A stretch of 64,000 bases of DNA from Terriglobia bacterium. Its GTDB lineage: Bacteria > Acidobacteriota > Thermoanaerobaculia > Thermoanaerobaculales > Thermoanaerobaculaceae. The notes below the pieces were generated by a model. That model saw only the letters and a list, made by a program, of their open reading frames with translations. It was not told the DNA's origin and did not search any database. Location: contig JAIQFQ010000009.1 in the NCBI GenBank assembly GCA_020073245.1, positions 39,703 through 103,702 on the forward strand. The letters run 5' to 3'. This document shows, piece by piece, positions 51,536-55,704 of this stretch (position 1 is its first letter; each line of letters starts with the position of its first letter). A program made the translations under genes and the position numbers.

Positions 51536-52246
51536 GTGCCCGGCCGGGTCATCGTCTGCGGTGATCTGCCCGACCGGTACGAGGCCGAGCGGCTGCTCGC
51601 CGAACATCAACCCGGGCTGCACCTTGACAGCGTGGCGCGGCCGTGGGAGATGGTCGAGCGAGCGATGTCGGGAAGCTACGACGTCGCGCTGCTCCTCAAG
51701 GGACCGATCGCGGCGCACGAGGCGAGGCTGGAGGGCGTGGCGGGCTTGCGCCGCAACGGGTTCACGGGCAAGATCCTGGCCGGCGGGGCTTTTCTCACCG
51801 AGAAGCAAGACGCGGTGCGCGCCGGCGCCGACTACGCCTTCGATCCCGACAGACAGGCGCTGGAGCGGGTCGTCGGCGCCGCGCTCGTAAGACCAGCGGT
51901 CGCCGCCGACCACCCCTATCTGAGGTACCTCGTGGTCGGGGAGTGGGCGCGGTCGGTCGCCTATGCCGCGGAGCTCCCGACACCCCCAACCGACATCCTT
52001 CTCGCGGCCACGTCGTGCCACACCGGCGCCGCGTTCTGGAGCACGCTGGCGGCGTACGTGAGGGCGAACCCCTCAATGCGCTGCGTCGTGGTGGAAGACG
52101 ACGGCGGGGTGGACGCGCGGACCGAGGCTCTCGCGACAGGAATCCAGCCGTACGTTGTCCTGGAGCAGGAGGGGCTGGGCAAGGTGACGGAGTTGGTCCG
52201 GAGGTTCCTCCGCGAGTCCTGGCTCGCCACCGTGACGGCCGCCTGA
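51536..52246 (+). CDS. Receiver-like protein lacking the phospho-acceptor, with extra C-terminal domain
   Basis: The 236-residue protein starts at GTG 51536. Residues ~1-115 have the alternating strand/helix order of a CheY receiver (RVIVCGDLPDRYEAERLLAE...YDVALLLKGPIAAHEARL...GKILAGGAFLTEKQDAVRAGADYAFDPD), but the acidic pair and the phospho-acceptor Asp are missing (ALLLKGP where LLLD.. is expected). The C-terminal ~115 residues are unrecognised. This is probably a pseudo-receiver. It is cotranscribed with the mini-ferritin. Confidence 0.6.
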   Translation: MPGRVIVCGDLPDRYEAERLLAEHQPGLHLDSVARPWEMVERAMSGSYDVALLLKGPIAAHEARLEGVAGLRRNGFTGKILAGGAFLTEKQDAVRAGADYAFDPDRQALERVVGAALVRPAVAADHPYLRYLVVGEWARSVAYAAELPTPPTDILLAATSCHTGAAFWSTLAAYVRANPSMRCVVVEDDGGVDARTEALATGIQPYVVLEQEGLGKVTELVRRFLRESWLATVTAA

Positions 52247-52471: not shown

Positions 52472-52480
52472 TGGTAGAAT
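52472..52480 (+). promoter_or_regulatory. Extended -10-like TGGTAGAAT before ptb-buk
   Basis: It fits TGnTAnnnT, 53 bases before ATG 52534. No clear -35 box. Confidence 0.4.
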
Positions 52481-52533
52481 TATTGGGTGGAGCAGTCTGC
52501 TCCTGTGCTCCCAGGCCGGAACGGGAGGTTCGA

Positions 52534-54747
52534 ATGTTCGACATCGAGGCGTCGCTGGACCGACAGATCCTGGCGGTCCCGCGCAACCGGCCGACCGTCA
52601 TCTTCATCGAGCCGCTGGACCCGCGTGTGCTCGAAGCGGCGTGCTACCTGACGCGCTTCATCCGGCCCGTCTTCCTGGCGAAGGAGGACGCCGTTCGCCA
52701 GGTCGCTGCGCGCGACCTCGGCCATGTGGACCCCAACCGGCTCGAATTTGCCTTCTCGGAAAGTGCCTTCCTCGACCTCGCGGCCCAGGAAGCACTCGTC
52801 GAAGAGTTCATGAACGACTACCTCGAGAGCTGCCGCGAGGGAGGCCAAGGGAGGACACCGGCAGAGGCGCGCCGGTTCGTCTCGACCTCGGCACACTTCG
52901 GGATCTGTGCGGTCCGGCTGGGCCACGCGGACATGGTCGTCGGCGGCGCCACGCACGAGCCGAAGGACTTCTTCCGGCCGATGGTGCGGGCGCTGACCCA
53001 CCGGTACATGCCGTGCGAGGCGGGAGTGTTCGTCCTCCCGGACGACCACCCGGACACGATCTTCCCGCACAACATCGTGGTCTTCGGGGATGTCGGGGTA
53101 ACCGCGACCATGACGCCCGAGGCGCTGGCAAACGTCGCAGTAGGGACGTGCGCCATCGCACGGGACCTCATCCCCGACGACGTGCTGCCGGAGATTCACG
53201 GCGCCATCGTGTCGTACTCCCACCGCGGCTCCGACGAAGGACCGTCCGCGGAGCTGGTGCGGCGGGCCGCGGAGTTGATCCCTGGAGTCCTGGCGGAGCG
53301 CGTTCGGCGTGGTAGGCGCTACGCGTCCATCAAGATCGAGGCCGAGGTCAAGGTGAGCGTCGCGCTGTCGCAGCGGTCCGCGACCTACTACAAGGCGGGC
53401 GCGCAGGCGGGGTGGACGGGCGGCACCAACGTCATCATCTGCCCAAACCTCGACATGGGGAACCTGCTCTACCACCTCTACGCCACGCGCTACCCGACCG
53501 CGAAGAAGTTCGCGGTGATGTTCGGTCTTCAGTTCCGGGGCGTGGACCTTGCAATGGACTGCACGCCGGAGGACGTACGGCTGGCGGTGAAGGCCTCCGT
53601 CCTGCGACTGCATCGATTCGGCGCATGGAAGCAGACACCGAAAGACACCCTTTTCCGCAGGCATCGGGTGCTCGCCATCAACCCCGGCTCGACCTCCACC
53701 AAGATCAGCGTCTACGAGGGCGAGCAGGAGAGCTTCACCGTCGAGCTGCAACACCCTGCGGCCGAGCTCGCGCCGTTCGAGGGAAAGCCGATCACGGAGC
53801 AGTTTGCGTTCCGTAAGGAGGTGATCGGGAAGGAACTCGCCGGTCACGGGCTCTCGATGGGGGAGATCGACGCCGTCGCGGCGCGAGGCGGTCTCCTGAG
53901 GCCTATCTCGCACGGCACCTACCGGGTCAGCGAAGCCATGACCGCGGAGCTCAGGGCCGGGGTGCTGGGCGAGCACGCCTCGAACCTCGGAGCGCTGATC
54001 GCCAACGAGCTGGTGGCCGGGACCGGCAAGCCCGCCTACATCGTCGACCCAGTCGTCGTGGACGAGGCACCCGAGCGGGTGAAGATCGCGGGGATCAAGG
54101 CGATCCGGCGCAAGGTGATAAGCCACGCGCTGAACCAGATCGCCACGGCCCACCGCTACGCGGAGGAGAACGAGACGTTCTACGAGAAGGTCAACGTGAT
54201 CGTCGCCCACATGGGGGGCGGTATCTCGATCGGCGCTCACAAGAAGGGCCGCTACATCGACGTCAACAACGCCCTCGACGGCGAGGGCCCCTTCACGCCT
54301 CAGCGCTCGGGTACCCTTCCGGTCGGCCAGCTCATCGACCTCTGCTTCTCCGGCAAGTATGCCAAGGAGGAGTTGAAGAAGCTCAACAAGGGACGCGGAG
54401 GCCTCATCGACCTGCTGGGCACGGCCGATCTGCGCGAGGTGGAGCGTCGGATCGGTGCCGGTGAGAGGGAGGCCGCGGACGTGTTCGAGGCGATGGCCTA
54501 CCAGATCGCCAAGAACATCTCGGCCCTCGTGCCGGCGTTCGACGGCGAGCCGGTTGACCGCATCCTTCTGACAGGCGGTATGGCGCGCTCGCAGAAGCTG
54601 GTGGCTGCGATCACGCAGTTCGTCGCCGCGGTGGGTTGCGGCGTGACGGTCTATCCTGGCGAGAACGAGATGCTGGCCCTCGCGAAGGGGGCGCTCCGGG
54701 TGCTCGACCACAAGGAGGCCGCGCGCGACTACAGGCCGGAGGCTTGA
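52534..54747 (+). CDS. Fused phosphotransacylase (Pta/Ptb-like) and butyrate kinase
   Basis: The 738-residue protein has two enzymes in one chain. ATG 52534 follows GGGAGG; the track ORF starts 21 codons earlier. Residues ~1-370 are a phosphotransacylase-like domain (ADMVVGGATHEPKDFFRPMV, NVIICPNLDMGNLLYHLYA), which converts acyl-CoA and phosphate to acyl phosphate. Residues ~377-738 are butyrate kinase: VLAINPGSTSTKISVYEGE, VIVAHMGGGISIGAHKKGR, RSGTLPVGQLIDLCFSGKY and ILLTGGMARSQKLV, making ATP from acyl phosphate. A direct fusion would channel acyl phosphate. I know of no characterised case. Confidence 0.9.
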   Translation: MFDIEASLDRQILAVPRNRPTVIFIEPLDPRVLEAACYLTRFIRPVFLAKEDAVRQVAARDLGHVDPNRLEFAFSESAFLDLAAQEALVEEFMNDYLESCREGGQGRTPAEARRFVSTSAHFGICAVRLGHADMVVGGATHEPKDFFRPMVRALTHRYMPCEAGVFVLPDDHPDTIFPHNIVVFGDVGVTATMTPEALANVAVGTCAIARDLIPDDVLPEIHGAIVSYSHRGSDEGPSAELVRRAAELIPGVLAERVRRGRRYASIKIEAEVKVSVALSQRSATYYKAGAQAGWTGGTNVIICPNLDMGNLLYHLYATRYPTAKKFAVMFGLQFRGVDLAMDCTPEDVRLAVKASVLRLHRFGAWKQTPKDTLFRRHRVLAINPGSTSTKISVYEGEQESFTVELQHPAAELAPFEGKPITEQFAFRKEVIGKELAGHGLSMGEIDAVAARGGLLRPISHGTYRVSEAMTAELRAGVLGEHASNLGALIANELVAGTGKPAYIVDPVVVDEAPERVKIAGIKAIRRKVISHALNQIATAHRYAEENETFYEKVNVIVAHMGGGISIGAHKKGRYIDVNNALDGEGPFTPQRSGTLPVGQLIDLCFSGKYAKEELKKLNKGRGGLIDLLGTADLREVERRIGAGEREAADVFEAMAYQIAKNISALVPAFDGEPVDRILLTGGMARSQKLVAAITQFVAAVGCGVTVYPGENEMLALAKGALRVLDHKEAARDYRPEA

Positions 54748-54749
54748 AG

Positions 54750-54770
54750 ACAGGGCGTAGGGCACAGGGA
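54750..54770. repeat. AGGGCACAGGG short repeat before ptb
   Basis: CAGGGCGTAGGGCACAGGG lies between ptb-buk and the separate ptb, close to its ribosome site. Its complement matches the GCCCTGT/GCCCTGA repeat at 28674. Confidence 0.5.
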
Positions 54771-54780
54771 ATCAGGAGGG

Positions 54781-55704
54781 ATGATGAGGCCGATTCGGAC
54801 GCTCGAGCAGCTCGCGGAAGGGGTCAAGGGCGCACCGGCCCGCCGTGTCGCGGTCGCCGCCGGGCACGATGAGAACACGATCGAGGCCGCGGCCCGCGCG
54901 GCGAGCGAGGGGATCGCGAAGGTGATCCTGGTGGGGGACGCCCCCCGCATCGAGGCGCTCTGCAAGGAGCTCAAGCTCGACATCGGTGTCTTCTCGGTCA
55001 TCGACGAGCGCGACGAGGCGAAGGCAGGGGCAAAGGCGCGCGACATGGTGCGGGAGGGCGAGGCCGACGTCCTGATGAAAGGGCTCATCGGCACCGACAA
55101 GTACATGCACCTGATCCTGGACAAGGAAAGGGGATTGCTGCCCGCAGGGGCCGTCCTGACACACATCACGGTCCTCGACATCCCGGCGTACCAGAAGACC
55201 CACGGCAAGCTGCTGATCGTCTCCGACGTCGCGGTCATCCCGGCGCCGGACCTGCCGACCAAGGTCAAGATCGTGGGGTACGCCGTGGACGCAGCCCACT
55301 CGTTCGGGATTGAGCGGCCAAAGGTCGCGCTCCTTGCCGCCAACGAGAAGGTGTCCGACAAGATGCCGGCGACCACGGACGCCGCGATCATCTCCAAGAT
55401 GGCCGAGCGCGGGCAGATCAAGGGCGCGATCGTGGACGGGCCGCTGGCCCTCGACGTGGCGCTCTCACGCGAAGCCTGCGAGATCAAGGGGCTTGCCTCG
55501 ATCGTGGAAGGCGACGCGGACGTGCTGATCTTCCCTAACATCGAGACCGGCAACGTCTTCTACAAGGGCGCCACGCTTCTCGGCGGCGCGAGCCTGGCGG
55601 CGGTCGTGGTCGGCACCTCGGCACCGTGCATTCTCACAAGCCGCGCGGATTCGGAGGATTCGAAGTTTTACTCGATCGCCCTCGGCTGCCGCCTCGCCAA
55701 GTAG
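54781..55704 (+). CDS. ptb: Phosphate butyryltransferase
   Basis: The 307-residue enzyme interconverts butyryl-CoA (or a branched acyl-CoA) and the acyl phosphate. The start is ATG 54781 or 54784; AGGAGG directly precedes both. Features of the family are VILVGDAPRIEALCKEL, EADVLMKGLIGTDKYMHLIL, VALLAANEKVSDKMPATTDA and FPNIETGNVFYKGATLLGGA. Full-length, without a fused kinase. It follows the fusion gene by 33 bases and is in the same transcript, so the cell carries two phosphotransacylase domains and one kinase in the operon. Confidence 0.93.
   Translation: MMRPIRTLEQLAEGVKGAPARRVAVAAGHDENTIEAAARAASEGIAKVILVGDAPRIEALCKELKLDIGVFSVIDERDEAKAGAKARDMVREGEADVLMKGLIGTDKYMHLILDKERGLLPAGAVLTHITVLDIPAYQKTHGKLLIVSDVAVIPAPDLPTKVKIVGYAVDAAHSFGIERPKVALLAANEKVSDKMPATTDAAIISKMAERGQIKGAIVDGPLALDVALSREACEIKGLASIVEGDADVLIFPNIETGNVFYKGATLLGGASLAAVVVGTSAPCILTSRADSEDSKFYSIALGCRLAK

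Follow-up and report, generated by a model that had tools for sequence, protein, structure and literature searches.

The PTA domain of MaeB lacks critical catalytic residues, senses acetyl-CoA and controls the malic enzyme (PMC7902834, PMC12704298), and PTA-fold domains form the core of the MaeB hexamer (PMC7902834). The gene described here resembles MaeB in that a catalytic domain is fused to a PTA fold short of key catalytic residues, but its partner is an acyl kinase rather than a malic enzyme domain, and its PTA-like domain is N-terminal where that of MaeB is C-terminal. It also recalls the Clostridium-type Ptb-Buk system, in which the same two steps are carried out by Ptb and then Buk, often from adjacent genes; here, however, the kinase is joined to a further Pta-like domain, probably without catalysis of its own, and a separate Ptb is present as well. 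With the Pta enzymes of M. thermophila and T. pallidum the likeness extends to the fold and to part of the ligand cleft, but the fused sequences are without the Ser-Arg pair and the N-terminal domain scores far under the cut-off of the Pta model TIGR00651 (77.2 bits against 311.2). A PTA-fold pseudo-enzyme attached to a catalytic domain is already known from MaeB, and what is new is the kinase partner and the separate clade. We found no description of this fusion in the searched, mostly open-access papers on butyrate kinase fusion and bifunctionality, on Geothrix and on Acidobacteria.

Within the window, by which we mean the whole 64,000-nucleotide stretch of DNA that was analysed, the fusion gene occupies positions 52534..54747 of the + strand, and its translation gives 737 residues without an internal stop, beginning with a start (MFDIE) that is conserved in relatives. 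An earlier sequence-only reading had proposed that a Pta/Ptb-like domain and a full butyrate kinase share one frame, and both family matches bear this out; nor does the translation hold a stop at residues 370-380, where a break would have undone the proposal. Residues 1-362 (52534..53619, +) form a PTA_PTB-fold domain, matched by Pfam PF01515 over residues 17-348 (E 4.5e-24), and are followed by a conserved interdomain linker of fixed length (residues 363-377; 53620..53664, +) and by the butyrate kinase domain (residues 378-737; 53665..54744, +). The latter matches NCBIfam TIGR02707 over residues 378-730 with 444.9 bits against a cut-off of 289.1, covering profile positions 1-349 of 351, and the Pfam Acetate_kinase family over residues 541-698. 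An AlphaFold2 model resolves two domains with confidence (pLDDT 85.7, pTM 0.84); the solved folds nearest to them by Foldseek are Buk and Buk2 for the kinase and, for the N-terminal half, Pta and MaeB PTA domains. This half aligns with 1qzt_B at a TM score of 0.84 by target length and has the PTA_PTB fold. Across 46 sequences the ASKHA-type motif residues of the kinase, NPGSTSTK, His559, Gly561-563, Arg591 and Glu712, are invariant; Met560 within the HMGGG motif is variable. Judged by these features, the kinase half is a butyrate kinase with a complete domain, and its predicted substrate range probably takes in branched-chain acyl phosphates too. The host draft genome (89 contigs, 4.38 Mb) has one butyrate kinase, namely the fused copy.

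The next gene (54784..55704, +) encodes a stand-alone phosphotransbutyrylase (Ptb) of 306 aa, as the sequence-only reading had it, and the fused domain was rightly said to lack close resemblance to this neighbour: BLASTP aligns the two over 131 columns at 28% identity (E 9e-5), a distant likeness. The adjoining gene scores 325 bits with PRK05805 and 311 bits with TIGR02706 in NCBIfam, both under the models' own cut-offs, and the solved structure closest to it is 7vg9, a phosphate butyryltransferase (E 5.7e-73). In 60 of 60 separate Ptb sequences the catalytic Ser and Arg are retained together with Lys257, Asn279 and Lys283, a pattern that makes the adjoining Ptb the likely working transacylase of the pathway. 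We detected a separate Ptb-type gene in 33 of 35 distinct genomes that carry the fusion, G374 and G444 having been entered once on account of identical contigs; none was found in G430 and G292, both draft assemblies and both with a canonical Pta. Since a Ptb gene is usually present and the fused kinase is the sole Buk of the host, the two-step pathway is complete without the extra domain. Three fusion loci at which we saw no adjoining Ptb have a Pta-type gene of 336 aa next to the fusion, on the other strand (L068:5372-6382, L100:11014-12024, L046:1693-2703); the L068 copy falls among canonical Pta in the tree and has the Ser-Arg pair.

The principal observation concerns the catalytic residues of the fused transacylase half, which we numbered through an alignment anchored on M. 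thermophila Pta; 98 distinct fused domains were compared. Where Pta has Ser309, 51 of them carry Pro, 46 Ala and one Ser; where it has Arg310, 81 carry Met, and the three with Arg are without the Ser, so that the pair never occurs together in any of the 98. Every Pta and Ptb compared retains both. In the window the two positions are Ala340 and Met341 (53551..53556, +). Alanine mutants of T. pallidum Pta keep 0.30% of activity at the Ser position, 0.07% at the Arg and 14% at the Asp (PMC10194888). Because the catalytic residues are missing, the fused half is very probably no active transacylase. Much of the cleft is nevertheless preserved: the equivalents of Arg28, Arg133 (Arg148; 52975..52977, +), Ser210, Gly213, Gly278, Asn279 and Asp316 (Asp347; 53572..53574, +) are unchanged in all 98, and further positions carry near-fixed replacements, with Gln244 becoming Lys in 97, Lys257 Tyr in 96 and Ala215 Asp in 98. 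Such a pattern suggests remodelling and not decay. Two lysines that contact CoA in Pta are altered, Lys257 to Tyr and Lys283 to His, and for this reason the ligand may be something other than a CoA ester. The missing pair also makes it unlikely that acyl phosphate is handed directly between two working sites, as had been imagined from the sequence, and, with the position of the fused domain on the Pta side of the tree, disfavours the idea of two active transacylases serving different chain lengths.

In that tree the fused domains form a clade of their own on the Pta side and do not group with Ptb, which is a separate clade (100/100). The host MaeB falls with canonical Pta (96/91), away from the fused clade, and has Gln at the Ser309 position while keeping Asp316, whereas the fused domain is without Arg310 as well. 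One stand-alone protein, from locus L057, joins the fused domains (99/97), although on a long branch that leaves its placement uncertain. It is in the tree with them yet unfused and with the Ser-Arg pair present, keeping Ser309, Arg310 and Lys257 and lacking Arg133 and Asp316. Apart from this protein (L057:2061-3236, 391 aa), 396 genomes of the phylum yielded no stand-alone relative of the fused domain, nor did 247 genomes from the phylum of a Spirochaetales genome.

Full-length fusions were found in all eight genus-mates searched, with 79-92% identity; at L035 and L039 the search alignment shows one TGA each, yet an ORF scan gives uninterrupted frames of 734 aa. The search for fusions in related genomes, which the sequence-only reading had proposed, turned them up also in many other members of the phylum, in named isolates such as Geothrix fermentans DSM 14018 and Geothrix limicola, and in other phyla. 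A scan of public genomes with the N-terminal domain as query gave 111 matches, and at the best 80 of these the domain and the kinase lie in one frame, barring L075 and a few truncated contigs. At L075 the frame is broken within the kinase half (L075:8001-10226; 421 aa, then 312 aa), which may be a sequencing error or a genuine interruption. The closest named relatives among the matches listed are Acidobacteriota, one of them labelled Thermoanaerobaculaceae, and fusion-bearing draft genomes carry the labels, as deposited, of Krumholzibacteriota, Elusimicrobia, Spirochaetales, Myxococcota, Gemmatimonas, Latescibacterota and Fibrobacter.

The fused kinase halves fall into one supported clade (100/99), within which two unfused kinases are nested (G316, L053; G340, L054), both from one genus of Holophagaceae, the family of Geothrix. 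These are best read, from their position in the tree, as cases of secondary loss of the N-terminal domain, and such losses would mean that the domain is not required for the kinase to be retained. In both genomes a Pta-type gene lies near the unfused kinase, on the opposite strand. Pairwise distances among N-terminal domains correlate with those among the kinase halves at 0.91, a value reached by none of 500 Mantel permutations. The single kinase clade and this correlation rule out recent independent fusions, and what we observe fits one ancient fusion that was then inherited vertically, with a measure of lateral spread.

In proposing a role for the fused half, we need to explain why a domain without its catalytic pair has kept so many cleft residues. 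Our contention is that the protein is a butyrate kinase with an N-terminal pseudo-phosphotransacylase that, on the analogy with MaeB, probably serves as a metabolite sensor tuning the kinase; the passing suggestion of a 'regulatory half' in the sequence-only reading thereby gains support, as a putative role. Purifying selection on the domain, the conserved linker of fixed length, and the presence of MaeB PTA domains among the nearest folds count in favour of this reading. Ptb would make acyl phosphate from acyl-CoA and phosphate; the fused kinase would use this product to form ATP together with a fatty acid, short or branched, or run in reverse. In its altered cleft the pseudo-transacylase half would bind a metabolite of the pathway, be it acyl-CoA, CoA, acyl phosphate or phosphate, and the signal would travel through the short rigid linker to tune the kinase in a MaeB-like manner. 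To name acyl-CoA as the ligand is a guess, and acyl phosphate or phosphate are possible in its place. Ligand binding, allostery, the sign of the regulation and the exact acyl substrate are points that we infer. One observation sits awkwardly with an inactive sensor, namely that Asp316, the proposed base, is kept in all fused domains, which would be odd if there were no chemistry for it to perform, although the host MaeB retains it as well.

The main rival to the sensor is a pure scaffold, in which the domain would set the oligomeric state of the kinase and dock Ptb, so that acyl phosphate is passed inside a Ptb-Buk complex without any sensing. Such a role could tolerate the loss of catalytic residues and has a precedent in the hexamer core that PTA-fold domains build in MaeB (PMC7902834). 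The linker, too, is rigid and conserved as a scaffold would have it: its 15 residues have a mean conservation of 0.83, against 0.75 and 0.79 for the two domains, and the stretch R358-N383 has a single length in 112 of 115 sequences. Adjacency of ptb to the fusion, which we see at 46 of the 80 best loci among the 111 matches, likewise favours docking; however, this adjacency is absent from the Spirochaetales and Myxococcota loci. Residues of the cleft, beyond those of surfaces alone, are fixed in all 98 fused domains, which suggests a ligand. We consider the scaffold unlikely on balance, at something like one chance in a handful.

Less likely again is that the fused half remains an active phosphotransacylase, with an altered mechanism or substrate by way of Lys273, Tyr286 and Asp347, making the protein a true bifunctional enzyme. 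The universal Asp316 equivalent and the near-fixed cleft replacements would accord with this, as would the two genomes in which no Ptb-type gene was found (G292, G430). So would purifying selection, which acts on both halves: in four pairs dN/dS is 0.09-0.15 for the fused domain, similar to the 0.07-0.20 of the kinase. But the Ser309-Arg310 pair, present in every Pta and Ptb compared, is in no fusion; single mutants at these two residues in a related Pta lose more than 99.5% of their activity (PMC10194888); and 33 of the 35 fusion-carrying genomes compared have a separate Ptb-type gene. That the domain is a decaying relic of the old fusion, with no present role, is very improbable: the catalytic pair is indeed gone and two genomes of the fused clade lack the domain, but the dN/dS values just given, conservation of 98% or more in 56 of 371 columns and persistence across several phyla are hardly those of a relic. 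Chance or misassembly can be set aside, for although the host genome is a draft, all genus-mates searched share the fusion, and it is present in single-contig genomes (G027, G087, G097, G205, G378) and in the named isolates.

A broader form of the sensor reading, to which we give slightly less than an even chance, is that these proteins constitute a class of allosteric butyrate kinases not described before: the pseudo-phosphotransacylase would read the acyl-CoA or phosphate pool and gate the formation of ATP from acyl phosphates, short and branched, and the PTA fold would have been recruited as a metabolite sensor a second time, separately from MaeB. Were the sensor real, the final step in the fermentation of short- and branched-chain fatty acids would be regulated in many Acidobacteriota, Geothrix among them, and in relatives from other phyla, a regulated step on which the literature searched is silent. 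Butyrate kinase commonly serves as a marker of butyrate formation, and a model score alone would name the fusion 'butyrate kinase'. A second PTA-fold sensor would, in addition, make the route from dead transacylase to allosteric domain testable by comparison.

With regard to the substrate, gene context proved mostly uninformative as a guide, with neighbours other than ptb varying by lineage. The operon of the L057 protein includes subunits of a VOR-type 2-oxoacid:ferredoxin oxidoreductase, one of them above the VorB cut-off, and L065, alone among the fusion loci examined, is near a VOR-type gene set; the host genome has a VorB above the cut-off, located elsewhere than the fusion. Because of these gene sets and the host VorB, a branched-chain acyl-CoA derived from amino acid breakdown is a plausible substrate, as judged from few loci.

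Upstream of the fusion, at window positions 51536-52246, lies a gene for a 236-aa protein that matches nothing in Pfam or NCBIfam and is present at seven loci of the same group. Opposite the fusion, on the - strand, an antisense frame of 761 aa spans window positions 52480-54765, and long antisense frames occur at 74 of the 80 best loci among the 111 matches; high G+C codon usage accounts for them most simply.
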